A DNA stretch of 64,000 nucleotides. Source: Owenia fusiformis. Taxonomy: Eukaryota > Annelida > Polychaeta > Sabellida > Oweniidae. Numbering within the stretch: position 1 is the stretch's first letter; each line of letters opens with the position of its first letter. The notes under the pieces were generated by a model that was not told the origin of the DNA, made no database searches, and saw only the letters and a list, made by a program, of their open reading frames with translations. The stretch is taken from assembly GCA_903813345.2 (NCBI GenBank), contig CAIIXF020000001.1:35681366-35745365 (forward strand), in the 5' to 3' direction. The position numbers and the translations under genes are program-made. This document shows positions 1 to 64,000 of this stretch, one piece after another.

Positions 1-3000
1 GGTACGCACATCAAAGCTGATGTTTCTCCATTGTTGTAACTCTTCAATTCTTTTTTGATCCTCACTCTTCCCTGCAACACACATAATCTTGATATATTCC
101 CTTATTGATTATTCTCTATATTCTGTTTCTTAAAGGGCTTTATACTGCTTGCAAAGCTCAGTTACTTCCCTTCCATTTACCCATTCTCTAGATCTTTTAA
201 TCATACATCACTTCAAAATCTTTTTCCACAGAGTATAGCTTTTGGTCAACCTTAAAAACACAGTACACTCTCTGAATTATACTACATTGTGTACCAGATC
301 ACAAGCTACAAATCAACTAACAACTGGCCTAGTTAACTTAACTTTTGGAGATTACAAGGAATAAAAATAAATCCATAAAAGGTGTCCCCTTAGACATATT
401 TAGTGATTAATGACAGGCAGGTGGCCTTAAGCCCTCTATTTGTGACACTTAGTCCCTTAAAGGTTCTATTGTACCCTCATAGCTTATATCATTTTAGTGC
501 TCCAACATGGCAAGTAATGCAATTATTACAAGTTTAACGCATTAATGTAATATTTGACATTACATTTCCCAATTTACAGTGTTTTAGTGATCTTAATATT
601 TTGTGTATGAAATGGATATTAAGGAACATGTCAATTCAAGGTTATGTAGACCTCAAAGTCTGAGTCTTTAAAGGGAGCCCTTTAAACATAAAGCAAGTAC
701 AGTGTACATCTTAAATCACAATGTAGAAGAGAATATAAAATACTTGTTGCATTAGAACTGGGAGGGCATTGTTCTCTCCTCACAGGTGAATTTGAACTTT
801 GGTATTCCATATGATCAAGGTCAAAACAGTGGTTTTAAATTAAAACATAATAATACAGAAACAATGTTTGAAATACACAAGACCAACCTGCTTTCAGCTT
901 CTTTTGACTTGTCACTGGAACATTTTTCTGCTCAGTTTCTTGCTGTCTGAAAAAAACAAGTTGATTGTGAGTATTCATATCTTGAATCACAACAGTATGT
1001 TCACCCAATAAACGTCTCTAGTGTTTATATATAAGATGTAATATGTTGACCTTCATAATAATTATCATTTGCATACTTTAGAGTTTGTTCCTGTTTACGT
1101 CTTTTAACAGGTACAGGAGGGGTCTGTGTTTGATCTGGGGTAGTCTCCATGGTAGCTTTTGAAGCAACTTCTGGTAAAGATTGTTCATCACATATGGCTT
1201 CAGTATCTCCCTCTCCATTTACTTCAGCAGTAATTGGTGGTTCTAGGTCAATTTCTGATTTGTTTATGGCACTGTTATCATTGGCTGTGATATCTGCATT
1301 AAAACAAGGAGTCGCCATTCATTATTTTACAGCAGTTGGTTGACTTGATTTGATAAACTATCAAGGGGTTAAGTGCCAGATTCGTCTGGCATGGGGATCG
1401 ATACTATTTTTCATAAATTTGAAAGAAAATATCACAATTTCAATTTATTAACTCAGATTTTCATATCGTATCAAAAATAGCCTACTTCAATACTTCATGC
1501 AATAGGCACATCATTTGGGTAACCTTCATTTCTGTTTGATATCCAATAAGGCTAGGAGTAAAAGATATTGGAAAGAGCGCAAGGGTACCATAATCTAAAT
1601 CATATGTTTTAGTTTTTAACTTCCTAATGTCATATTATAGCAACTTGATTATTTTTTTGAAGTCTTTATTAACTCTCATAAGTAAGACCTAGAATTAAGG
1701 TTTTAGAATTTTAGTTTTTCCAAAAAATAATCTTAACATTTCTTGACCACTTTTAGGGTATTGTCCACTATTGGGGGTCAGGTTTAAACAAGAAATTCAG
1801 ATCCCCATAGTTAATGCTTACCACTAAAACTTGATTCAACAGATAAGTTGCTTGTTGAAGCATCTTCCAGGAGTTCATTACCCTCAGAAATTTGTGAAAG
1901 GTATTCAAGTAGTTTTGATCTTATATCCAACTTCTTAATTACCTGTAATTTAAAGCAAGGTAGTTCTGTAGTTTGTTTGTTTAATCTTTATTTCCTCCAA
2001 AATAATGGAGTTAGACCATTTTACATAAAATATAACTTGTAATAACATAACATAGTTACATATTTTGGAAAACATCAACATTAGATCAGATTCATAATTC
2101 TATTGAGTAATTTGAATCCAGAAAATAAGCAATCAAAGTACCATATTGAAACAGTATATGTAAAAATAGAAACATTTATACTGTACATGGCCTAACTTTT
2201 GTATATTCTAGTTTGTTTTGTAGTGTTGCTACCATATTATGCACGGTGACCAAGAGTTAACAGTGCAAATCGGCCCGGTCGTGTTTTTTTAAACTCTTTA
2301 GTCGTGTTTTGTTGAAAATTTGAGAGGTAGGTTGATAAATTTGGTCATGAAATTGCTGTCACTTGACTTTATGTAAAAGTAAGTAATTTATATTGCTTTC
2401 CATACTATATATCTTAACTTCAGGTATTCGTAAACGTGTTATTTGCACGAATCGTATGCTATAGTCTTGTTATATCGGGAAATGAGCAATTCTGTCAGTG
2501 TTTTACATATTTTGCCTGAAAATCACTTGCCTGACTTGTATTCAATGAATACATCGATTCATAAGGAAAGCATTCACAATATGTGCGAAAATCAAAAGTT
2601 AGAAGAGCTTAAATAAGTAGCAATTGACCGAATAATATTTTTTAGATTAAACTCTTTAGACGTGTTGAAAAGATTGCGGTTAATGACGTTGACCTGTTAG
2701 TGAGGTTTAACGATTTGGAAGTGGGAAACAGCACAATTAACATTATGTATTTCCCAAAAAATGATCACAATGTGGAAGAAGTTGTTGTCTGAGTGACACT
2801 ATCTTAATTATAAATGATTAACAATAATCAAATGTACGACATAATATGTCAAGATTGATCTATGGGATCACTACCGAATTTGATACTTAAATCAAAATGG
2901 TTAGAATCAGACACGCATGGTTAATGCAAGCGAGCTTTGCCTCGTCGCTCGTCATTTTGAAAATTTGACCAGTCATATTATTTTTTAATTGCCCTGTCGC

Positions 3001-6000
3001 TCATTAAATGGCTCGTTGCTATTTTTGAATTTGCCTAAAATACGTTTTAAAACGTCCCTATTGGCCTTAAACTCACTTTTCCCTGTCAAGAACGTAAATA
3101 AATTTATTTAAAATGAGAGGAAATGTTTAGTTTGTGATGCACTACATGTAAATGCATATATATGATCACCTAACGTAAGGAATAACTCCACCGTTATTAA
3201 AATCGTATGCCCAATATCTATTAGGTTTGCCTCGGGATTTTTAACAATTTTATTCGATGTTATTCCCTAATTCGCCTCACACAATGCAATACAATTTCAA
3301 TTTTAATTTTCAAATTGCAATAGGTAAAAAACGCTACATATGCTGCTATCGTTCTATGAGTGATCTATGAACTGTAGTGTAACATAGTTTTCTAGCGAAT
3401 TAAATTACAACATCTGTTGATCTTGTTAAATCATATATCTGTCTTTTTTATTTATTCATATCTTGACTACAAATTACAATAAACGGGTGACACATAATGT
3501 ATATTCCCGTGTTTAGTACTAATACGATTATTTTCAGAAGCACAGACAAATTATTAAGCAACAAAACATGGTCAATGTGAACAATATTACAAGACAATTC
3601 AAAGTCGTTAATTTTATCACGTCTAAAACGTTATCTTTACAATTCCAAAACGTTAACATGCTTATTATAAGACACGTCCATGACGTTATATTGTCCCTTC
3701 TCCATAGTTAACTCCACTTTCTACATTTACGGTCATTTATGGCAATTTTAAGATAAATACAGTTAAAATATTTACACGATCTTTAGAGTAGTGAATATTA
3801 TTCCACGTTGTTGAATGGATTGTCTGTTTAAACTTGATTAAATAACACTAAATGCAAATTAAGTACATATTTCTGGCACTTTTGGTATATAATTGCGATT
3901 GATATGAAGTATGATGGATTTATCCCCAAAATAGATTCGTTGGTATGAAGAAGAACATCTTAGGTAGAAGTCAAGATATGTAAGTTTGTAAAATATAGAA
4001 TATTCTTACCATTTTGCTCCATTCTATCGAATGTCGCATCCCATGTTCTTACAAAACACGACTAAAGTGTTTAAAAAAACACGACCGGGCCGATTTGCAC
4101 TGTTAAATCTTGGTCACCGTGTTATGTGTGGCCTCTTATTTTGATACTTCTTATCTCTGCCATGTTATTTTCAGAAAAATTAACATGGCTGATACATCCT
4201 TAATTACAAAAGGCCTCAGCTTAGCTGCACATTATACATAACTATCTGAAATATACAAAAGTGAGGCCTCGTACTTATGTTTCTATTTTTCTATACTGTT
4301 GCAATATGGTCATTTAATTGCTTATTTTTTAAATTAAAAGTACGCAAAAGAATTTTGAATCGGACTGAACATTACATTTTTATGATATACTTGCGTGAGT
4401 AAATCACAAAAACCTCACTATTATAAATTATATCAAGTATTCAAGTTATAAATATCCTCCGTATTGCAGGGTTACAGAATCATACACAAAGTTCCTGGGG
4501 TACCCAGAGGTTACTTAGGTCCAAAGCCTTCTCTATATTCCAGCTTTGAGTGATTGTTAAAGCCGCCGTGGTATTCAATATTTGTAAATCATGGTGACAC
4601 ATGCACAGGTGTTATGACATAATTATATGAAACATACCTTTATGCATAATATCAGCTGATATCTCCGTCTTAATCGATTGTTATTTTAATTTAGCTAAGT
4701 GAAATTTCATTTCAAAATGGCCTCCATTTTTCTGCTGAGTGAGCTGTATAAATGCCGTATCCATAGAGTTTGAGCATGGGCATTCAATAATCTATTAAAA
4801 GCCCATGGTTTGTAAGGTTCTTTCCAAAATTAAATTTTGAAATATCTTATCCAGACAAGCAACTCTTCAACTTAATATAATTAATATTCTTATAAATATT
4901 TACAAGAATTATTAAATAGGAGTTCTAGGTGCCTGTGACACTTTTTCTAGATTACATACGAAATCAATGAAGTCACATATGAAGACTCAAGTAACCCAAA
5001 GGGTACATATTTATTCAAGTCTCTAGCCAATTCTTGGCTTGAAGAAATTCCATCTGGAACACTGTGAACTATTGTAAAATTTCTAGCCGGGGTTCAATAA
5101 AAAGTAATATATGCTAAAAACCGTCATCTTAATATTTCACGATTTGAAATGGTAACGAATTGTCTTGTTTATGAGATATTGAATGTTTTCATTTAAAATA
5201 GAAGTCGTCCACCAATCCTTTGTTGAAAAAACATTGACAAATTATAGTTTTAAATGTGAAGAGAACGAGCTTTGAACGAGCTTCAATATAAAAAAATCAA
5301 ATCTTCTTTTAATTTTGAGAGTACGCCATGGCGTTTTAGCGTATATGATGCTACGCCATTGGCTGCACCTCCTTGTCATTTGCTAGCTATGCCCAGAAGA
5401 GGATGGTTATTCAATTGACAGAAAAATCTGTGATCCGACTGGTGTTTCTTTACTTGAATCCATATCCGTATCCGGCATTTACAGATCTGGTTTTTATTGA
5501 CTACCTAAACGTTACACCAATAGTCCATTTTCTCCACTTGGTCACTCTTAGATTTAGCCAAGTATTGGATGATTGGAGGCAGTTTTGATCAATTTTGCAA
5601 AGGGTTAATTTTATTCTCATCTGTCTCAAAAAAACAGGAATATCCCAGAATTCATACAGTCATAGGCCAAGGGTTCATCTATAATCCTGGGAAATAACCT
5701 CTCCTGGACGTAAACTCAAAAAACTTAAATAAAACTTAAATAATTGTGAGAATGTTAAATTAAATATGTAATTTAATTAAATAATATTAATTAATAACTG
5801 CTGTGATTTGATTTGTCGACTGCAGAGACATCTTTCAAGTAAAAAAGATGGCGATTGGATGTCGATTTTTCATGACCATGGGTTGCTCGGTAAAAGCAAC
5901 CAGATTGTTTCGTCAATGAGATATTTATAGGAAGTCCCTTTGTTGAAATACCCTGGAACGACTGTCAGGCTACCGAGTTGACATCGCCCCTCTTTACCAG

Positions 6001-7558
6001 TAGTGTAGGCTTGTTGTTATGCACTGGGACATTCTACATTTGAAATTTTAAAAATTTACCATAGACCTATTGCTAAAATACAACTTAGCTTAATTGTTAA
6101 GCTGTTTACTGACAGAAGAATCAGATTTAAAAGTAGATAAGCTGTCACTGTCTAAAATATCACTAGGCAGAGTGTTCTATTTTACTATTGTCCTTGGAAA
6201 GTAGCTAAACTAGTATGCATCCGTTCTGGCAGCTGGTTGGATGAATTTGGATGGATGGAACTGTCTGGTGTTTGTGTTTGTTTGAGGGCTGTAGTATGTG
6301 GGTATATAGATGGCTGCTAAGTGTTCCTTTGTAGAAAAGGGAAAGTCTGGAAGCCTACCTATGCGATTGTAGCGATTCCCACTGCAGGTGTTGGAGAGCT
6401 TGGGTGACACACCCTGGTTCCCTAGAGTGACATTTGGTAACAAATCTGGTTGCTTTCCTTTGTACCTGTTTCAGCATGTTTATATCCTTCTGGCGGTAAG
6501 GATCCCATGCTGCACTAGCATATTCTAGGTTTGGCTGTACTAGCGACTTGTATGCCTGGGCTTTAATGTTCTCTGGGCACTGATGGAGGTTGCGCTGGAG
6601 GAAGCCTAGCACTTTGTTAGATTTCGATACTACTGTTTGTATGTGTGTGATCCAGTTTAGGTCGTGATTTCAATTCCTACATTTTCCTAGGTATGGTATG
6701 TGGGCCACAGATTTTAATTCTTCACCCAAAATCGTGTACTTATGTGTGATGGGTGATTTACGTCTGTGAATACTCAGTACATAGCATTTTGAGGGATGGA
6801 ATTTCATTTGCCATGCATTTGCCCAGGAGACCATTTTGTCAAGGTCATCCTGGAGTGTTAGTGCGTCCTGTTGGTTCTCGACAGACATGAAGAGGAGGCT
6901 GTCATCTGCAAATTGTTTGAGGCTGGTTGTTGGTGATAAGTCGCTGCCCATATCATTGATATAGACAAGCAAGCAGAGCGGTCCAAGCACAGGTCCTTGA
7001 GGGACACCCGATTTCACTGGTGTTCTTGTACTAGATTCCCCATCCAGTACTACTTGTTGGGACCTTCCAACGAGCCAAGATCTGAGCCAGCTCAAGTTGT
7101 TTCAGCAAATTCCATAGTGATTAAGCTTTAGGAGCAGGTGCTCATATGCGACTGTATCAAACGCTCTCGAGAAGTCCAGTACTGTAAGTACTAATTTTAG
7201 AGAAGATCATTGGACATATGGTGAGATTGAGCTGTTAGAGAAGGGATTTGGATGTTTACGAAATGAGCCTGTATTTTTTTACATTTATACAGTGACTGGG
7301 GGGGGGGGGATTTAAAAATCTTCCTGGGCCTGTGATTTTATAGATCGCTCAAATCATTTCATTGAAACAAATGTACAAAATTCTCTCATTTACTCCAAAT
7401 TCAGTGGACAAAATATAATGAAGTCTACACAACTCTACCTTTTGGGTTTCTTCCTTTGTAAGATCTCGATCTAAGCTTTCCAAATGGTCTATTTGTCTTA
7501 ATTTCTTGCGTAATTTACGGATTTCTATAAATTTTTCCTTTTCGATGGGAGCAGACAT
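1..7558 (-). CDS. Unrecognised basic, charged protein, 5' part (five exons, runs off left edge)
   Basis: Five exons join in frame with GT-AG sites: 7439-7558, 1822-1942, 1077-1293, 888-946 and 1-71. They give 196 codons with no stop. The ATG at 7558 opens MSAPIEKEKF. Residues ~12-60 form a charged helical hairpin (LRKKLRQIDHLESLDRDL, then TKEETQK running across the first junction into VIKKLDIRSKL). This resembles the C-terminal helical motif of PYM and eIF2A-type translation factors, which is an inference from pattern only. An acidic, Ser/Thr/Pro-rich low-complexity segment follows, then a basic patch (VPVKRRKQEQ) and a Lys/Glu/Gln-rich likely coiled coil (GKSEDQKRIEELQQWRN). No signal peptide or membrane segment is visible, so it is probably nuclear or cytoplasmic. 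Intron 1 (1943-7438) is 5.5 kb and filled by a Transib-like element and a LINE. The phases (0, 1, 2, 1) match at every junction, which is the main support. I do not recognise the family. Confidence 0.75.
2242..4121. mobile_element. Non-autonomous DNA transposon, Transib/RAG-like termini
   Basis: Both ends carry a 71-bp terminal inverted repeat that differs at only about two positions and starts CACGGTGACCAAGA. The element is flanked by an exact 5-bp direct repeat, TTATG (2237-2241 and 4122-4126). No transposase reading frame is present in the 1.88 kb. A CAC-starting heptamer plus a 5-bp target duplication is the hallmark of the Transib/RAG superfamily; assignment on this basis is inference. 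It sits in intron 1 of the minus-strand gene. Near-identical arms suggest recent movement. Confidence 0.8.
4122..5890. other. Intron sequence without recognised content
   Basis: This is AT-rich sequence in intron 1 of the minus-strand gene. The longest open frame, 5373-5588 plus, has no recognisable domain and looks like chance. I see no clear repeat ends or RNA gene. Confidence 0.4.
5900..7195 (-). mobile_element. 5'-truncated CR1/Jockey-type LINE relic
   Basis: On the minus strand the end of a reverse transcriptase is readable: VLTVLDFSRAFDT near 7190, then SGVPQGPVLGPLCLLVYIND and the catalytic box FADDSLLF near 6925-6900, then the thumb segment KAQAYKSLVQPNLEYASAAW near 6560 and the usual C-terminus ending NTLPSDILDSDSLSTFK near 6150. 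The upstream endonuclease and the front of the RT are missing, as expected for 5' truncation. Frame changes near 6670 and 6390 and later stops show it is dead. The motif style fits the CR1/Jockey superfamily. Confidence 0.85.
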
Positions 7559-8836: not shown

Positions 8837-10619
8837 TACTTAGGGACCCAGCCTGAATATTTTTGTTTTTGAATATTGGAGAGTATTACGCGAGATTTTT
8901 TCATTTTCTCGTTGGAAAATATATTTATTTTATGATGTGGGGTGATATCTAGAGTTTGAGGCTTGCGAAAATAAGATATCCTCATCTTTATACCCCCACC
9001 CTATACTTTCAGGGGGGTCAGAAGAAAATAAACTTTAATTCATAACTTTGGAAGTAAATGAGATACAAACTTAATTTTTTCACCATAATTTATAGAATAA
9101 CATCAGTAATGCAGAAAAAATATATCAAACGAAAATAAGCTAATTTGCATAATTTAACCCTTAAACCGCCATAAAAACTATTAAATAACGGAATGATAAT
9201 AAACAACTTTTACTGTAATTGCCTTCATATGAAGTTATAACTTATGAAATAATTCTTAAAAATGCATCTATATATGTATATTAGATGTGCAAAATATTAA
9301 AAGTGTATCTTACATAATGACTGTGAAAAATATTTCTCCCCTTACCCTAAAATTGAAGGGAGGGGGTCAAAATAAAATAAAATTTAATTCATAACTTTGG
9401 AAGTATATAAGATACAAACTTAATTTTTTCACCAAAATTTACAAAATAATATCAGTAATGGAGAAAAAAATATTTTGAACAAAAATAAGCTAATTTGCAT
9501 AATTTAACCCTTAAACCGCCATAAAAACTATTAAATGACAAAATGATAATATACGACATTTACTGTAATTACCTTCATATGAAGTTATAACTGATGAAAT
9601 AATTCCTAAAAATGCATCTATATATGTATAATAGATTGGAAAAATATTAAAAGTGCATCTTATATATAGATTGTGAAAAAATTTCTCCCCCTACCCAGAT
9701 ATTTCAGGGGGTCAACTGAAAATGGACTTAAATTTATAACTTTGGAAGTATATGAGGTATAAACCTATTTGTTCACCAACATTTATGTAATAACATCAGT
9801 AACTAAGAAAAACATTTTTGATATGCAAATAAGCTAATTTGCATAATTTAACCCTTATACAGTCATAAAAACCGTTAAATGACAAAACTATAAAATACGA
9901 CATTTATTTTAATCGACCTCTCATGAAGTTATAACTTATAAAATAATTCATGTAGTTGCATTTATATATGTATAACAGATGTGCAAAATATTAAAAGTGT
10001 ATCTTACATAACGACTGTGAAAAAAATTCTCCCCCTACCCAGATATTTGAGGGGGGGTCAAAATGAAAATGGACTTTAATTCATAACTTTGGAAGTATAT
10101 GAGGTACAAACTTAATTTTTCACCAATATTTATGTTATATCATCAGTAATTCAGAAAAAATATTTTTTGATATGCAAATAAGCTAATTTGCATAATTTAA
10201 CCCTTATAACGTAATAAAAACCATTAAATGACGAAGTGATAAAATATGGCATTTACTTTAATTGACTTCTTATGAAGTTATAACGTCGAGAAAAAATTTA
10301 CAACAGATATGCATAATATAAAGAGGTTATTTTATATAATGAGTGTGAAAAGAATCTTACACCCTACCTTAATAATTTTGAGGGCTCGGGGGGGGGGTTA
10401 AAGAAAATAATAGACTTTAACTCATAACTCTGAAATAATTTAAGAAAGAGCTTACATTTCTTCGCTGAAAATTGAGAAATCATATCAATAATGAAACGAA
10501 TATTACATGGGGGCAATACTATATTTCAACTAATTTGCATAATTTAAGCTTCAAACAGTCATGAGAATCATTATAAGGCAAAGTGGTTCTATACTGAAAT
10601 TGACTTCACATGAAGTAAG

Positions 10620-29634: not shown

Positions 29635-32607
29635 TCAAACCAAATCCTCGAATTTGCAGATTTTTTCACTAGTCTCTCCATCTAGATCACAGAAACAATA
29701 TCCCTTTGGACAATGTTCTCTTGAGCAAACTAAATTACACCATTCGTTTTTGACCACCTGGTCTGCTTCTGTGACCCACCCTCCCCTAGCAACACATTTG
29801 CTTAATGCTTCCTTGGATGTTACTAGCCTATCATTTATTAATTTATCATACGATTCAGTTGTAGACACGAAGGATTGTTTTGATGGGGGTTGTGTACTCA
29901 TTTCATCTAAAGTCTCATGGATTGAAATATCAGCACATCCAAAGAATTGTTCTTGAGGGCCACACCCGACGCAACCACCCTCTGGTATGCGGATATCTGG
30001 TCCCCATCTATTACCTTAAATAACAATAAGGAACCAATAGCTTTATTTTATAAGTCTTTGCTTCGTTTAAAATGTCATGTATTGATTTGAAATATTTATA
30101 GAGATAAAAACAATCTGAACAGGACGTCATGCTATATTTGTTCAATAAATGTCCCAATAAATATCACAATACGCTGCCAATCAATTCGTTTCCACTCGCT
30201 AATCAATTTTCATATTGTTCCAAGATGGATTCATACTGATGCCACCATTGTTACAATTCAACCATAGACAATATGTGAAATTGAGGTATTTGATCGATCA
30301 GTAAATAAACAAAATATAAACAATCGTGGGATAAACATTTATACAAATAAACTGTAAAATCAATATCTTTATATCAATATGATAATCATTCCTATAGTGA
30401 TAGTCCAATTGTCATATTCGTATGACATCATAACATGAATTGAAGAAATAATGGAGTCGGCCCACCACACATTTTTTTGTTAAAACAAATCATTTAAACA
30501 AAATGAAAAAGCTTGCACAATATGGCACAAAACAAGGCAATGAAAACAAAGTAGTACTATTTGATAACCATGGCGCCCATGGCGAGTATAACTTATTTAT
30601 TCTAAAGAATATGGTATACTATATCCAAATAAATGAATTGAAAAAAAGCCAAGCGTCAGAATTAAATCAGAAAATGAGATATAACATTCACACTAAACAA
30701 TTAGCAACATTGAAAAGAATACAACCAATTTACAAAACATCCCGCCTCTGAAATATCTGCTGTAACCTTAAAGTTTATAATAATTGCCGAAGCACCAAGA
30801 ACACATTTGAAAATATCTAAAACAATTAGTCTAGTAGAAAACAACCCAGACACTCAGAGTATAAATTATGTAAGCAATATGGTATTCGGGACAAAAAAAT
30901 AGTAGACATATTGATATAATAATTAATTGACACTATTCATCGATGATCGATAAAACACTATGGGTCTTTTAATTGAATTTAAAATAACAGTTATTCTTAT
31001 ACCTGCGTTGTATTTCCATTGGAGTACACACTGGGAACAGGTGAGATCTTTGGGAAGACGAGCGGAGACTTTGTAAACAGTGCGTCTTTCATCAGGGAGA
31101 TAATACCTAATGCCACCATTTGTAAGCCTGAGAAGATTGGTGTTTAAGCACTTTTGGGTGATGGGCTTTGTAATATCATTATTTTCACAAATCCTGAATT
31201 CAAACCATCCTTTGTGGTTAGCTGTAATGTTCACGAATATATCAATGTTTGCTCCACTTAGATATTGTTGAACTATTGTTCCAGTTGCAAATTCCCCCCC
31301 TGCCTCATTATCACGTGGCTTGTCCCACGGGTCACCACACGGACCACACTTTCCTCCGTTCACCTCCCACTGATGCTGTAATGAGAAACATATTCTATAT
31401 TTTAAGAAATCTGGGCAGTTATATGCCAATAGCCGGACACAAAAACGGTGATAATAATGGGCCTACTAGAATAGTCTTGTTCACGACATAAACATAAATG
31501 ATGACCCTTCGAACCAATTTACAGTTCTACCATATGTTTAATTCTAGTGTGCCAGAGAGCCTTTGGGTGACAATTTTTTAAGTGTCATGACATTTTTTCA
31601 TTAGAACCCATGTAAAATGTGATTTTTTCCACAAATTAAAAACACGCTTTTGGATATTTAGCATTCTATATATTTCTTGCATTCACTGAAACTTTGTTAT
31701 TGAACATAATAACTTTGAAGATGAAGGAAGGGTTTGTGTCCACAACAAAAAAGGAAAACGCCAAGAAAATTAAAATACCAGGGATCTGGGAATAACAAAA
31801 CAATCCAGATCGATTTCAAAGTCTATCCCAGCATATGGCTGCAAATATATTTTATGACTATTGTATCTATTTGTACTATTTATTTTTTCAGTACTACACA
31901 TAAATGACCAGTTTCCCCAAGGCAGCAGGTACAGAGGTGGCGGGATCAAAATGACTTGAAAGCCTGTAAGTGATACACTCATAATCAACTCAATTCTACA
32001 GGCGTATACTTAGCTGCTTTATTGTTTGGATAGCTTAGATAATTATATATACTTATCTGTAATCCATAAAACACTTAACATAACACCATAGCAGTATTGA
32101 CGATTGATATCATAGTTTATTCACTGATGACGAAATTACCCTCGATCTAATTGTTGGCCATTGTTACATAAACACGGCATCCTACTTTTTCAAAGCCGAA
32201 TCTATATTCCAAATGACCTCATTTCAAAGTGCAATATATATAATATTGAAATCTGGCCCTATTTTGAAACTAAGGCATGGTATGGGCTGGCTATTTGCTT
32301 GCTCGCTAGATCTGATTCTCTCGTTAAATAACACTTACCATCAATATCGGTGCTATACGTTTAAGAAACTTACAGTAAAGTTTCTTAAATACATTAGATT
32401 ATGTATTTTCGTACTTTATCGAAAACTTACCACATAGCCACCACAGTATAGTTGATTGTCGTCGTAGTTAATAGGGGCGTCATAACCGAATCTCCACATG
32501 CTAGATCTTGATGCTGGCTCTATCATCCGACCGTGTCCATGAGTCAATTTAGATTGAAAAATAATCAACATACACTCGATAAAACAGAGTAAAATGTCCG
32601 AGTACAT
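29635..32607 (-). CDS. Secreted AA15-type lytic polysaccharide monooxygenase
   Basis: Three exons: 32431-32607, 31003-31375 and 29635-30014 (GT-AG, phases 0 and 1), 309 residues. A 24-residue signal peptide (hydrophobic ILLCFIECMLIIF) precedes HGRMIEPASRSSMWRFGYD, placing a His at the mature N-terminus as one half of the copper histidine brace. The second brace His is in ANHKGWFEFRIC (precursor residue ~113). CGPQEQFFGCADISI (residues 201-215) is the conserved C-terminal block with the likely axial aromatic. These are the AA15 hallmarks; AA15 enzymes oxidatively cleave chitin and sometimes cellulose outside the cell. A Ser/Thr-rich linker leads to a ~50-residue Cys-rich tail (CVARGGW...WCNLVC...CPKGYCFC). 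VNIT is a possible N-glycosylation site. The frame is intact, so the gene looks functional. The start is the Met that gives a proper signal peptide; an upstream in-frame Met at 32676 would spoil it. Confidence 0.93.
30015..31002 (-). other. LPMO intron 2
   Basis: AT-rich intron with AG at its 3' end next to 30014 and GTATAAG at its 5' end. A plus-strand 82-codon frame at 30503-30751 has no recognisable domain and a skewed Asn/Lys composition expected of AT-rich sequence. Confidence 0.5.
31376..32430 (-). other. LPMO intron 1
   Basis: Bounded by GTAAGT next to 32431 and TTACAG next to 31375. No repeat or gene was recognised inside. Confidence 0.55.
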
Positions 32608-59700: not shown

Positions 59701-62700
59701 TACTCTCCTCTATACGTTTGGCAACCTTAGCTCACCCATTGAACTATGTGTGAAAGCCTCTTAACCTTTGGATTTTTATATTATTGATGGAACATAATTT
59801 GACTTTATTTCCAATACCTCCAAATTACAATAAGTCGAAAATTGTTGATAAATTTAATGAATTTTTGAAAATTGACATTCCCATGTTAACCAATAGGAAA
59901 TTGTAGGTTTGCCGCAAGTCATATGACAGAATATCCATCCATCCGAGTCCTTGCAAAAATACGAATTAGGCAGGCAATTGAATTTGCTAACTTTATTTAA
60001 GAAAAATTGATATGTTTCTTTAGGTTCAACAAGGTTATAGGGCTTTAAAGTCAAAATTGTTTTTCAAAAAACCTCTCCCATTGAAATAACACAGGAGGCG
60101 AAAAATGATTTTCAAAAATGTCTTTGAAGCGCTGTAACGTTAGTACTTATCAAATGAACTAAACACTTAGCGTACAAAAAAGTTAGACAATTCAATTTTC
60201 TATATAAAGATATTTTTGCTAAATCTTTTACTGAAAAGATATCCTGATTTCTGATTTGCACCGAACCCTCCATTTCCTATTGGATTACATGGTAATGACG
60301 ATTCTCAAAAATTCATCAAATTTATCATCAATTTTTGACCTATTGTAATTGAGGAAAAAAATGAGAAAATTTGGAGGTATTGGAAATAAAGTCAAGTTAC
60401 GTTTCCATCAATATTATAAGTTATTTCAACGCCAGTTAAGTAAATAAAAACTCAAACGTAAACAGGCTTTAACACGTACTTAAATTGGTGAGCTAACGTT
60501 GCCAATCTTATGGATGGGGAGTGTATGTTGTTTTCTCTTTATCTATTAAAGAAACATACATATAACAAAGCCAACCTAAAGATCTGATCTTGATTTACGT
60601 GATAGTACTCTTATATTTAGACACAAAGTTGATTGGTATTGTAAGAGTTACAATTGTTACGAGGTAAACACAATACAAATATATATCATATTCTGCAACG
60701 AATATGGCATATTCACTTGCGGTGTATGCCAGATTAACCTGCGGTATATGGCACACTAACCAATGATACCGCGATACAGAATTACATAATTTTCAAATAC
60801 ATCGATTCAACGAACATGCTAAAGTCTATGAATTATTATTATGATTACTGAATAAATATCTTAGTGCATTGAAAATTTCAACTAATACAATTTAATAACA
60901 TACACCAGTATGGTACCTGTATTGTTTGATGTTGTTTTATGTATGTGTTCCACAGAAAAACACTCCTCAAGGGGAAAATTATGATGTATAAATAAACGAA
61001 CCTACGTTCGTAAAGCATATAAGTGATTTTTTAAAACCAAATCAACAGTTGAAAAAATCCAGATAAAAACACGAGTATTTACATATTGTATTGATTATCA
61101 TGATTTACACATTGCTGATACTTTCAGGAGTATCATTCGTAGTTTTACATTTAGAATCGATTCTTTCGACCAATCAAATCGAGGCTTTCTGTATCGCGTT
61201 TTCACCTGCTGTATATGGCATATTAGGCAGTTGAGTATGCCATATTCCGTAGAAGAGTATGACATATTTTGCAGTGAGTATCTGATATTCACTAAAAATC
61301 AATGTATCGCATATTTACTGAGGAATATGCCATATTCACCTGCGGAATATGCCATATACCCCAGGTGAGTATGGTATATTTATCCATATCACAAATACCG
61401 CACAACCATGAATATATGCCATATTACGCGTAACAACTATAAGAATATGACTGGAATATGTAAGTACTGGTGCTAAAGGGTAAGGACTCAAAAATTGTTC
61501 AGAACAAAGTAAGAAAAAGATAACATTTAAGTATAGATCACAGGAAAAGCAAACCCAAACTATCCAAAACCATAAAAATTGTACCTTTGAGCCTCCGAAA
61601 TTTTGTTCACAAACGAACCGTTTCAGTAACCAGGTTATTAATCAAATGGCCATCACCAGTGAGATTACTTTACGATTACTTAATTGTAAAATTACTTTCA
61701 AAGAATTGCAGGCATTTGAAACATATCTTTTTCCCTAGGGGGTATATTTTTCAAGGGGAGGGGGTACCAAAAAATGATTTTTCCACGAAACTGATCTTGG
61801 TAAATTTTTCGTATGTCATTCCATATATTTATATGAATTGAAAAAATAAAATTTAATTACTATTGCAATTAGTTTTGGGTCAAAGGAGTGAGGTCTCAAC
61901 ATTGTGGACATTTACATATGTGCTTTTATGAGAAATTAGCAAAGAAATTTTTAAACGGTCTGTTTCATTCAATGGAAGGTTAGTCATATGTCAATAAGCA
62001 CACTGATCGCTGTCTAAAATTGTTATTGCCTTAACCTGTTCTATTTAGTGCAAGCATAGATTGTTTTAAATGCCTATTTTCAAAATGCAACCAAATAATG
62101 TTATAGACAGGCAATGGCATCAATTTTGTAAAAAGATGTGAAACAGAACATGACTATTTTTAAAGGAAACAGATACCCTTTTATGTGGATTTCGCTATAG
62201 CTATACCATTAACATGTTATTGATTGTAATAGACATGTCCACAGACGAACCAACAACAACCACAGAAATAACCACACAAGATCCAACAACACCCACAGAA
62301 ATGACCACACAAGATCCAGCAACAACCACAGAAGTTACCACACAAGGTCCTACAACAACCACTGAAGTGACCACACAAGGTCCAACAACAACCACAGAAG
62401 TGACCACACAAAGTCCAACAACATCCACAGAAATTATCACACAAGATCCAACAACAACCACAGAAGTTACCACACAAGGTCCTACAACAACCACTGAAGT
62501 TACCACACAAGGTCCTACAACAACCACAGAAGTGACCACACAAGGTCCAACAACAACCACAGAAGTTACCACACAAGGTCCAACAACACCCACAGAAGTT
62601 ACCACACAAGGTCCAACAACAACCACAGAAGTTACCACACAAGGTCCAACAACACCCACAGAAGTTACCACACAAGGTCCTACAGAAGTGACCACACAAA

Positions 62701-64000
62701 GTCCAACAACATCCACAGAAATGTCTACACAAAGTCCAACAACATCCACAGAAATGTCTACACAAGGTCCAACAACACCCACAGAAATGTCTACACAAAG
62801 TCCAACAACATCCACAGAAATGACCACACAAGGTTCAACAACATCCACAGAAATGTCCACACAAGATCCCATAACATCCACGAAGCTGTCCACAGAAGGT
62901 CCAAAAGTAACCACAGGCATGTTCACATCATTAGCACTATCAGGGGGTGGAATCGCGTAGAGTATTTTCGTGGAATACAAACCAAGCAAGTATTTCTAGG
63001 AAAATACTCCTTGCATTTCCACTCATTGACTATACTGTGTTGAATGATGCAACACTTTTTATACATAAAAAGATGCTTAACTATTTTCTCCGTGGCAATT
63101 TTTCGTTATTCCTTTTTGTTTGGATTTTAACACCATACAATGGCGAATCAAGAAGATAACAAGGGGGGGGGGGCAAATTTTGAGTCATGAAAAAATGAGC
63201 CCTTATAACCCAAAATTGGGCCCAATTTTGATAATTTGGCCTAAACATTTTTTGAGGCCCAAGTTTTGAGGCCCTACAAAATTTTTGAGCCCGAAAATTG
63301 TTTGGTGCCCTAAAAGAATTTCTGGGCCCACAAAAGGGAAGGGGGCAGCCATGGGTCCCCCTGGATCCGCCAGTGCCATAACAATAACTACCCAATATGC
63401 AACTTTTAACCGAGTAGAAAATTATTATCAAACTGAGGAAATGACAGAAGTTTTCAATAGTATTAAATAGTAGTAAAGGACGCCTGCGCCGTTTACAGTA
63501 ACTTCGCCTTTGATCAAAACTGGGTAACAACAGAATTCCTACAAAATCATGAATGAAATAGCTATTGCATAGAGTCCTTTATTTTGTCAAAATTTAAGTA
63601 TATTTCAAGTTAAAAAATGAATTGTGCTAAATTATTGCTATTTCTTCGTAAAATGTCATGCTCCGGCCTATTGCCAAAATTATTCGATTGCACCCTATGG
63701 TATTATGTTTTAACTGACGTGGTTTGTTACAGAGTGTGCTCGTTCTCAATGTCAACATAATGGAACATGCTATGGCGATGCCACTAGATTTACATGCAAT
63801 TGTACCTCATCATACAGAGGTGACTTCTGTGAAATAGGTAAACAGATAAATAGTAGCCGGGACAGAACAAGTCAAAGCATTCCTAACTTACAAAATCTTT
63901 TGTTAAAGTCATAATCAATTAGTAGGTCAGAATTCAAGAAACAATCCCTAAATTTAGCTTGTATCAAATATCACAAATGAGACATATTTTTAGGTGGTGT
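38674..64000 (+). CDS. Mosaic secreted/cell-surface protein: PAN-CLECT-PAN-EGF-mucin-EGF (runs off right edge)
   Basis: Exons that join in frame: 38674-38725, 46215-46280, 47695-47943, 52028-52208, 54255-54460, 56661-56888, 58554-58682, 62233-~62946, 63733-63837, and probably 63994->64000. All introns are phase 1 except the one splitting the lectin domain (phase 2). Order: signal peptide (MDHIFVIYLFITIVTMKG), short Cys segment, PAN-like, C-type lectin, PAN-like, EGF, Thr/Ser/Pro mucin repeat, EGF. Such mosaics are usually adhesion, recognition or mucus proteins, acting outside the cell; the ligand is unknown. No membrane segment is seen, but the C-terminus lies outside the window. The uncertain points are the exact donor of the mucin exon and the last exon. 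Intron 1 is 7.5 kb and holds a whole foldback element; all exons keep open frames, so the gene looks intact. Confidence 0.88.
39730..40795. repeat. Tandem array, three ~340-370-bp units with ATGGCCGCCAT core
   Basis: Units share GTTCAACATCAATACAGAAA, AAAAGCTCGCCTATTTTCAA, ATGGCCGCCATTTTTGTCTC and TTCAGGTGTCCTGCATTGTA, with cores at 39930, 40268 and 40636. They lie immediately left of foldback element B, in intron 1 of the lectin/mucin gene. Confidence 0.8.
41860..42010. repeat. Short degenerate minisatellite
   Basis: About four ~31-36-bp units of ATACCAAATATCCAAATATA + AGACCAATGC in the middle of foldback element B. Open frames across it are artefacts. Confidence 0.6.
42560..44750 (+). mobile_element. 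Decayed LINE with reverse transcriptase, possibly restriction-like-endonuclease type
   Basis: Plus-strand pieces in order: FFENLYRLTSNLLGNQKSAH and PFDQSDFKLDEVRTIIRKAQ before the RT (~43090-43335), KGVTYRVYKNCGKLLIHLWR (~43340), EGKIFWAIMVKRR (~43530), SVPHQLILEVQ (~43710), the catalytic-type box RAFMDDITVMTRSV (~43980), PMQFKIKGKQIPTVHDKRIK (~44140), DKWLKAIDSSHISG and a Cys-containing LSTPSNLRLWGKEETANCPK near 44460-44515 like the zinc knuckle that precedes a restriction-like endonuclease. This order matches a metazoan LINE family that I recall with these motifs; its clade (R2/NeSL/Hero-like) is tentative. Many stops and frame changes; dead. It lies inside foldback element B. Confidence 0.75.
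46215..46280 (+). CDS. Exon 2: short Cys-containing segment
   Basis: After TTTTGTAG, codes for DVNGYCPVTPSSDCSCYEMH plus WA, then GCAA|GTAAGT. Three cysteines in 22 residues. It begins about 27 bp beyond the right end of foldback element B. No domain recognised. Confidence 0.75.
46625..46765. repeat. Small hairpin repeat
   Basis: The arms ATATCCTATGATTTTGAGGA and ...AATCATAGGATGTTC enclose a second inverted core (GATATCTGCACGAGAG / GAACGAGTGCATATATC). Lies in intron 2 of the lectin/mucin gene. Confidence 0.7.
46770..47043. mobile_element. Short MITE with internal palindromic iterons
   Basis: The ends ATTATCCTACACTTACAAGG and complement CACTAAGTGTAGGATAATAT are inverted repeats (with GTACTGAATGTATAATA further in). 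Inside are three copies of the palindrome GGAGTATATCGTAACGATAT + CCTCC (46868-46892, 46908-46933, 46937-46964). Confidence 0.75.
47100..47305. repeat. Fragment related to the 26863-27575 MITE
   Basis: Matches 27040-27275 (ATTTACTCAAAAGAGGATCT, TGCATGAAAAGATTATTCAA, GAAAACAATGGAT). Only the loop portion of the MITE is present. Confidence 0.7.
47695..47943 (+). CDS. Exon 3: PAN/apple-like domain 1
   Basis: Six cysteines in the spacing of a PAN-like fold: HQCLGQ, AACDSACEADSLC, TLQCDGWGHIGC. The segment SLCKTYNYNFKTLQC is the usual CxxFxYxxxxxxC-type PAN core. Bounded by TTTCAG and GGA|GTAAGT. Domain call from pattern only. Confidence 0.8.
48063..48750. mobile_element. MITE family Q, copy 2
   Basis: Inverted ends ...TCTCTTAAACCA / TGGTTTAAGAGAAA... 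with AAAACATTCTG / CAGAATGTTTT inside; the outer GTATCGATA word is also shared in reverse with copy 1 (25492-26180). The two copies are alike along their length. Located in intron 3 of the lectin/mucin gene. Confidence 0.75.
49516..50074. mobile_element. Internally deleted mariner (same family as 16994-17960)
   Basis: The ends CAGGGTGGTCAAAACAAAAC and complement TTTTTTTGACCACCCTG are flanked by TA on both sides. The interior keeps only a transposase C-terminus (RPYLLRNAFG...TVQVCLQRN), as in the longer copy. 559 bp, non-autonomous. Confidence 0.85.
50080..50995. other. Intron 3 segment, GC-richer, unassigned
   Basis: Sequence around 50330-50860 is less AT-rich than its surroundings. The open frames here have no recognised domain. 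Possibly a very old element. Confidence 0.3.
51000..51535. mobile_element. Hairpin MITE with CCAATATGGCGG near its axis
   Basis: The left arm (GGCTTACTTTTGGT, GTAAGTATTGGAGCGCT, GATCAAGACTTGTAA, CCAATATGGCGG) is repeated in reverse at 51330-51535, with the axis near 51285. A one-arm relative is at 32935-33220. Confidence 0.8.
52028..52208 (+). CDS. Exon 4: C-type lectin domain, N-terminal half
   Basis: Shows CYWISDSSDTQSFADAQAKC followed by KALGGQLAEIDLPDEQIFL, the classical start of a CTLD (FxxAxxxCxxxGGxLAxI). The donor GTCGG|GTATGT leaves phase 2, matching exon 5. Confidence 0.92.
53042..53577. mobile_element. Hairpin MITE with a 98-bp duplication in one arm
   Basis: The ends GTTTACACGCCCGGTGATCG and complement CTATCACCGGGCGTGGTTTAC are inverted repeats, with long matching arms (AATTGCCAAATGAATAGG, GCAGTGCATGGCAAAATATG). 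The left arm contains the segment twice (53140-53237 and 53238-53335), the right arm once. Intron 4 of the lectin/mucin gene. Confidence 0.8.
53700..54045. mobile_element. Small hairpin MITE
   Basis: Inverted arms: AAGAACAATAAGCCC, CAAATTATATGCTCATGTG and AGCTCATCCAAGCGCA on the left match the complement at 53925-54030. It lies next to the 53-kb hairpin MITE. Confidence 0.75.
54255..54460 (+). CDS. Exon 5: C-type lectin domain, C-terminal half
   Basis: Contains YVWIGLSND (WIGL motif), GWNNGTAPDFVSW, EPALSSYCV and PCSTSLPYMCE. The usual EPN sugar/Ca2+ motif is EPA here, and the WND motif is replaced by KWVTEPC. Classical Ca2+-dependent sugar binding at site 2 is therefore doubtful. Confidence 0.92.
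55436..55735. mobile_element. Iteron-rich MITE, short copy
   Basis: Matches the complement of 61100-61437 (TTCATGGTTGTGCGGTATTT; TCGATTTGATTGGTCG). It carries about seven copies of CACCTGCGGAATATG-type words in both orientations. Confidence 0.7.
55741..56513. mobile_element. MITE with TATCACACCAAAC ends, rich in GAACG words
   Basis: The ends ACCCTACTATCACACCAAAC and complement GTTTGGTGTGATAGGGGGGT are inverted repeats. The interior repeats GAACG/GGACGTACT words at short spacing. Right-end relatives occur at 26185-26302 and 57045-57315. Confidence 0.8.
56661..56888 (+). CDS. Exon 6: PAN/apple-like domain 2
   Basis: Codes for GQCRLRDKQDM...HSCTRSCFLDSNCFWAMYN...YYCDFVNSG...YEKVCPG with six cysteines. 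CxxxCxxxxxCxxxxYNxxxxxC is the PAN pattern. Bounded by TTTCCAG and CCAG|GTAAGA. Only moderately similar to exon 3. Confidence 0.85.
57045..57440. mobile_element. Partial copies of the TATCACACCAAAC-end MITE
   Basis: 57045-57315 matches the right third of 55741-56513 (ACGCGTTATACGAC, TTTTAGACATATTTC) and ends TTCGGTGTGATAGGGCGG. It is followed by a left-end-like segment ACACACCAGACAAGTTTTCA and GAACG-type words in the other sense (57320-57440), suggesting two neighbouring insertions or a rearranged copy. Confidence 0.65.
57820..58010. repeat. Dispersed repeat segment
   Basis: Contains TTTTGTATTGACTA, CAGGTCAGGTACAGTTTAAA and ACTATTCTACTATTGAATGA; relatives occur near 33395-33470 and 36265-36345. 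Family unknown. Confidence 0.5.
58554..58682 (+). CDS. Exon 7: EGF-like domain 1
   Basis: Six cysteines: VCRQNGFCLHDGKC...GPCFCQPGYTGEQCETG. The CxCxxGYTGxxC end is diagnostic of EGF. NFT is a possible N-glycosylation site. Acceptor TTTTAG, donor ACAG|GTATGG. Confidence 0.92.
59699..60530. mobile_element. Palindromic MITE, family P (copy 2)
   Basis: The inverted ends ATACTCTCCTCTATACGTTT (left) and complement CTTATGGATGGGGAGTGTAT (right) enclose the same interior as 22258-23070 (TTGGCAACCTTAGCTCACCC; GGTTTGCCGCAAGTCATATG; CACAGGAGGCGAAAAATGAT). In intron 7 of the lectin/mucin gene. Confidence 0.8.
60653..61437. mobile_element. Iteron-rich MITE, long copy
   Basis: The ends TTGTTACGAGGTAA and complement TTACGCGTAACAAC are inverted. 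Both subterminal parts carry repeated ACCTGCGGAATATGCCATAT-type words in both orientations (notably 60705-60760 and 61200-61375). Related to 55436-55735. No transposase. Confidence 0.75.
61567..61670. mobile_element. Half copy of the 13860-14345 hairpin MITE
   Basis: AAAATTGTACCTTTGAGCCT, TTTTGTTCACAAACGAACCG and GGCCATCACCAGTGAGATTA match one outer arm of the earlier element. Confidence 0.6.
62233..62946 (+). CDS. Exon 8: Thr/Ser/Pro mucin-like tandem repeat
   Basis: About 20 tandem 33-nt units code for the 11-residue repeat TTQGPTTTTEV with variants (TTQDP, STQSP, TSTEM). It has no Cys and is dense in Thr/Pro, so is expected to be heavily O-glycosylated and extended. Acceptor GTAATAG at 62232. 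The donor is uncertain: the phase-1 site at 62946|GTGGAA is chosen because it keeps the frame to exon 9; an earlier site near 62898 is possible. The frame otherwise stops at 62958-62960. Confidence 0.82.
63138..63375. mobile_element. Short MITE with CACTGGCGGATCC-type ends
   Basis: The left CAATGGCGAATC and the complement of the right end, CACTGGCGGATCCAGGGGG, are inverted repeats flanked by an exact CCATA (63133-63137 and 63376-63380). 238 bp with G runs and GAGGCCC/GGGCCC words; no coding. It lies in intron 8. Frames reading through it are artefacts. Confidence 0.65.
63733..63837 (+). CDS. Exon 9: EGF-like domain 2
   Basis: ECARSQCQHNGTCYGDATRF then TCNCTSSYRGDFCEIG, six cysteines in EGF spacing. 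NGT and NCT are possible N-glycosylation sites. Acceptor TTACAG, donor ATAG|GTAAAC, phase 1. A further TTTTTAG acceptor before 63994 suggests another exon at the window edge. Confidence 0.92.
   Translation, partial: SVLVLNVNIMEHAMAMPLDLHAIVPHHTEVTSVK

Follow-up and report, generated by a model that had tools for sequence, protein, structure and literature searches.

Transposons of the RAG1/Transib-related CMCT clade mostly carry CA..TG ends and produce target-site duplications of 2–5 bp (PMC12730594). Transib ends are mostly symmetric (PMC8289069), and Hztransib combines long inverted ends with a 5-bp duplication, GCTCG (PMC1852546). The duplications of RAG-like (RAGL) transposons are nearly always 5 bp, like those of RAG and Transib transposition, and the ends of protostome RAGL elements have CAC as their first 3 bp within the consensus CACTWMCAAACKTYKBB (PMC7204232). 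Here we describe a 1880-bp element, its boundaries exact to the base, at positions 2242–4121 of a 64,000-nucleotide stretch of the annelid Owenia fusiformis (GenBank assembly GCA_903813345.2, contig CAIIXF020000001.1, forward-strand positions 35,681,366–35,745,365; hereafter the window). The element starts with CACGGTG, as does Hztransib itself, and it is a member of a real, young, non-autonomous family of cut-and-paste DNA transposons. A literature search found no paper joining Transib with CACGGTG, and the family did not turn up among the papers listed, which is weak evidence that it is unpublished. We regard it as a new but fairly ordinary addition to a known kind of transposon.

A young family with 5-bp target-site duplications

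The element is delimited by two arms of 71 nt each, at 2242–2312 on the plus strand and at 4051–4121 on the minus strand, which are 97% complementary across a spacing of 1738 nt and mismatched at end positions 15 and 54. The left arm starts with CACGGTGACCAAGAGTTAACAGTG and the right arm finishes with GGTCACCGTG; the termini read CACGGTGACC..GGTCACCGTG, with CACGGTG on the left and CACCGTG on the right. An identical TTATG adjoins each arm, at 2237–2241 and 4122–4126. The initial annotation, made from the letters of the window, had described 71-bp inverted ends with about two differences, a CACGGTG start and an exact TTATG duplication, and on each of these points it was accurate. It had also called the element young and non-autonomous, and both terms hold: the interior (2313–4050) has no recognized gene, the longest listed open reading frame touching the element being 57 aa, and the family is young by the divergence measure given below. 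The interior includes a short 22-bp tandem repeat at 3606–3657 on the plus strand, which recurs in the copy at locus L009. Relative to copies of ~2.3 kb (alignments to that at L042 and to others), the window copy lacks ~380 bp at element position 1274–1284 and shows smaller insertions and deletions. Since it is otherwise collinear with these copies, it is an internally deleted form of the ~2.3-kb element, or a descendant of one; the deletion is common to a set of sister copies.

Searching the genome with the element's end, as the initial annotation had proposed, revealed how widely the family has spread. The assembly (G000; 498 Mb in 525 contigs, twelve of them large) was scanned with a 35-base end pattern allowing up to 3 mismatches, which yielded 107 matching ends (54 + 53), as compared to 0 + 0 for the reversed pattern used as control, a difference well outside chance. 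From 60 stretches at or beside listed end places, together with the window, we assembled a sample of 49 inward end pairs, which are spread over 11 large contigs; the pairs from a later, wider end search stand outside this tally, as do eight loci at which the ends are unpaired. CACGGTG occurs at 48 of the 49 left ends and CACCGTG at 47 of the right ends, figures that are biased upward because the copies were picked with a pattern containing the heptamer. Fourteen copies measure 1.85–1.92 kb (the window's class), another 14 measure 2.28–2.34 kb, 4 exceed 8 kb, and the 17 others range from 336 to 3216 bp. The 36 copies of 1.8–2.45 kb differ pairwise by a median of 1.73%, with extremes of 0.04% (L029 vs L042, on different contigs) and 17.03%. 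The window copy itself differs by 0.64% from that at L027, lies within 2.8% of 30 of the 35 others and is 4.9–10.4% from the remaining five. By this measure, to which no years are attached, the family is young. The end pattern has no match in viral contigs.

The flanks of these copies, tallied over all 49 pairs as had likewise been suggested, make 5 bp the rule of the family: an exact 5-bp duplication, and no longer, flanks 43 of the 49 pairs, as compared to 10 matches among 2352 mispaired left and right flanks from different copies. At L024 the two flanks agree at 4 of 5 positions, and no duplication is found at L044 and L054. Could the family instead reflect segmental duplication, or an inverted repeat that arose by chance? 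The pair at L033 and L034, whose flanks and duplication are shared, does speak for segmental copying: it is a single duplicated locus, which leaves 42 of the 43 sites distinct. Those distinct sites, the spread of pairs over 11 large contigs and the paralogous empty sites described below refute this explanation, which we consider practically eliminated.

The sites themselves are not random in sequence. At 26 of 43 sites C precedes the duplication (p = 3e-10), and at 22 of 43 G follows it (p = 4e-7); 11 of 43 have both. The preference, C-NNNNN-G, is palindromic, matching what is predicted for strand transfer by a symmetric complex.

Fit to Transib and to other transposases

Which enzyme would move such an element? 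Among the known superfamilies, Transib is the best fit on the CAC..GTG ends and the 5-bp duplications, and from this combination of ends and 5-bp stagger we infer that the enzyme is of Transib type and belongs to the CMCT clade. Hztransib offers the closest likeness, with inverted ends bearing a heptamer like that of recombination signal sequences (RSS), mostly symmetric as in Transib generally, and a 5-bp duplication (PMC1852546; PMC8289069). Transib-type mobilization of the family is our best guess, held with modest confidence. If so, a transposase encoded elsewhere would act in trans (its absence from the family is established for the copies read) and may recognize about 24 bp at the outer tip of each end, starting CACGGTG. 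The element would be excised and then joined to a target cut with a 5-bp stagger, preferably at C^NNNNN^G, giving the 5-bp duplications. The window copy, for its part, carries an internal deletion relative to the ~2.3-kb element and inserted into an inverted repeat that was already there.

Several observations weigh against this assignment. First, exact 6-bp duplications flank 3 of the 49 pairs (L028, L029 and L065). Second, the duplicated bases are GC-poor, with 49 of 215 (22.8%) being G or C as compared to 571 of 1720 (33.2%) in the flanks (p = 5.6e-4), and only 3 of the 43 duplications contain at least three G or C. This runs in the direction opposite to the GC bias reported for the targets of ProtoRAG, Transib and RAG (PMC8289069), a bias that is characteristic of Transib but no strict requirement for membership. 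Third, no recognized transposase, and no recognized coding sequence of any kind, was found in any copy read of the family. Finally, the Transib or RAG1-like transposase that the initial annotation expected elsewhere in the genome was not found by searches that had no positive control, without which an empty result is uninformative. The RAG1 profile PF12940 gave three weak matches (E 1.1–1.2), below the cut-off, and 0 of 14 control genomes was positive. A Transib-like query of reconstructed sequence had a single match, at chance level (E 1.5). For HzTransib, a reconstructed motif matched the PDB entry 6pqn (E 2.7e-18). A longer query, also reconstructed apart from 55 final residues copied from the 6pqn match, aligned over residues 107–438 with an E value (1.9e-117) that the copied letters helped; in the genome, HzTransib stretches of 55 aa and 332 aa both returned 0 matches. 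Thus, the earlier label of a Transib/RAG-like element stands in part: the ends and the 5-bp duplications fit Transib, the GC-poor duplications are opposite to it, and the RAG-like half of the label is unlikely.

That half, a RAG1L–RAG2L transposon family, can draw on the CAC start and the 5-bp duplications, on the existence of non-autonomous RAGL copies (PMC7204232) and on the presence of CACGGTG among the RSS heptamers that recombined well in PMC9723617. The family end CACGGTGACCAAGAGTT, however, agrees with the protostome RAGL end consensus (PMC7204232) in CAC and in little else, and the RAG1 profile found nothing above cut-off among the three candidates scored, again without positive control and with RAG2 not searched for. 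We consider such a family very unlikely.

A second alternative is an enzyme that is neither Transib nor RAG1L, which we take as possible and no stronger than tentative. The CAC..GTG termini recur in fungal EnSpm/CACTA elements, whose duplications are reported as 3 bp, as opposed to the 5 bp of 43 of the 49 pairs here, and 5 bp is the upper end within the clade (PMC12730594). The GC-poor duplications, unlike Transib's, and the failure to find a HzTransib-like protein favor such an enzyme, as do other transposase-like proteins of the genome that are distantly related to RAG1. Those proteins are described in the next section. Of 30 matches to one of them, 22 were checked for distance to the 118 listed end places, and none lies nearer than 121 kb (the 8 left out are neighbors of compared ones or lie on the small contig C483).

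Alternatively, the family could be a hAT5-type element, moved by a hAT transposase with 5-bp duplications. According to PMC12730594, hAT5 families have 5-bp and hAT6 families 6-bp duplications, and both lengths are seen here. hAT transposases are also abundant in this genome, with 150 matches (150 of 182 candidates were scored). Counting against a hAT5 origin, CACGG has a C in third place, where hAT ends usually differ, and none of the 145 hAT matches on contigs C1–C12 starts within 20 kb of the 118 listed end places, the closest being at 20.6 kb (five on small contigs were left out). On balance, a hAT5 origin seems improbable to us.

The choice between Transib and the alternatives has consequences. 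If the enzyme is Transib, the family supplies young substrates from a further animal for the study of how enzymes of the RAG type vary in recognizing ends and choosing targets, and its own target preference is the reverse of the GC bias reported. If it is another enzyme, CAC..GTG ends with 5-bp duplications would no longer be enough to call an element Transib. In other respects, what we describe is an ordinary non-autonomous transposon family.

Long copies, related ends and RAG1-related proteins

The long members of the family were natural candidates for autonomous elements. The four inward pairs above 8 kb (L009, L010+L011, L012+L013 and L014) each consist of this same short element plus unrelated insertions at different places; given these nested insertions, in which stop-to-stop frames reach at most 151 aa, they were rejected as autonomous copies. 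For the 2.3-kb copy at L042, six of the eleven listed frames were scanned against Pfam, and none scored above the cut-off. Within the stretch of L042 that is absent from the window copy, a 52-aa frame (736–894) has the look of a C2H2 zinc finger (Pfam E 0.0022, under the cut-off). At the other extreme of length, L063 holds a 336-bp miniature relative (9564–9899), flanked by the 5-bp duplication TCATT, that matches the 2.3-kb element over the outermost 28 and 38 bp at its ends and over 72 bp of subterminal sequence (94%).

The eight loci whose ends lack a partner (L043, L046, L055, L056, L057, L061, L064 and L066) were checked for a diverged partner end and for long frames, with a minimum length of 200 aa in all eight and of 100 aa in five. 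At L064 there is one weak partner-end candidate, spanning 6976 bp, with poor end agreement. L066, which also contains 500 N, has what appears by eye to be a fragment of a mariner-like transposase (9312–9650; 113 codons) ~9.2 kb from a CACGGTG end, and L043/L067 has a frame that by eye resembles a reverse transcriptase; neither lies between paired ends.

Beyond the family proper, two pattern searches that excluded it and two wider ones (controls 0) uncovered a second end type, CACGGTGACCAAGTGTTAACAGTGGAGATTG, which has the first 13 bases and positions 15–24 in common with the family end and diverges thereafter. An end block kept to position 24 and then lost is what a conserved site for the transposase would be expected to show. 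Most of the second-type ends among the matches listed have no inward partner within a few kilobases. Two longer pairs emerged. On contig C4 (28812571–28816535), related CACGGTGACCAAG ends face inward over 3965 bp, with CACGGTG.. at one end and, on the right, the heptamer CACAGTG, and on contig C9 (29985098–29991393) first-type CACGGTGACCAAG ends do so over 6296 bp. Either pair, known from its end matches alone, could be the autonomous partner of the family.

The genome also houses a transposon of ~5.3 kb that resembles ESTA, a group of EnSpm-like transposons with TA duplications, from fungi, that are RAG1-like by HHpred (PMC12730594). Two copies are present, at L069 (1378–3222; C8:5760470–5762311; with L072) and L071 (with L073), and their aligned pieces are 97–99% identical. 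The element has an open frame of 729 codons, the product of which is distantly related to RAG1. The match to RAG1 in Pfam is weak (E 0.0035), and the best match in the PDB (E 8.7e-4) arises from two collinear stretches that are individually non-significant (i-Evalues 31 and 0.42). In the alignment to RAG1, the first stretch contains a C-x2-C pair and the second an H-x4-H pair and an E. More distant relatives of this protein occur elsewhere in the genome, mostly at 26–39% identity (30 matches).

The likeness to ESTA lies in the RAG1-like protein and in flanks compatible with a TA duplication. Both copies start with CATATCGAG and finish with CTCGATATG, forming imperfect ends of 24 bp; no 5-bp duplication is found in their flanks, and the pattern observed there is one that a duplicated TA within CATATG would leave. 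Both the CATATCGAG ends and the missing 5-bp duplication set these copies apart from the window family, and the PF12940-matched frames of L069+L072 and L071+L073 were therefore rejected as its partner (a further match, L070, was read in part only). It is thus improbable that the ESTA-like element supplies the enzyme for the window copy. More speculatively, the family may be moved by an as yet undescribed CMCT transposase lineage, related to RAG1 and Transib, that would recognize a long, 24-bp end block starting CACGGTG and insert with a 5-bp stagger into AT-rich C-WWWWW-G targets, in contrast to the GC-biased enzymes of Transib and RAG, in a genome that also holds this ESTA-like RAG1-related transposon.

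The insertion site and its surroundings

The window copy sits inside an older, imperfect inverted repeat, whose left arm spans approximately 2090–2231 on the plus strand and whose right arm spans approximately 4222–4360 on the minus strand (local alignment score 167; the best of 200 shuffles scored 76). At L055, three diverged copies of this older repeat (82%, 78% and 74% identical) span the insertion point without the element and are paralogous empty sites. The host intron in which the initial annotation had placed the element was not confirmed: no exon was demonstrated on either side, and the insertion lies within this repeat.

Ten open reading frames of the window were scanned against Pfam, two of them scoring above the cut-off. 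One, at 6673–7095, is part of a retroelement's reverse transcriptase (E 1.1e-13), and the other, at 30926–31429, is a piece of a lytic polysaccharide mono-oxygenase (LPMO_10; E 1.1e-14). Toward the far end of the window, a long threonine-rich frame with tandem repeats (TTQGPTTTTEV..) occupies 62214–62960, where the other strand also has long frames.

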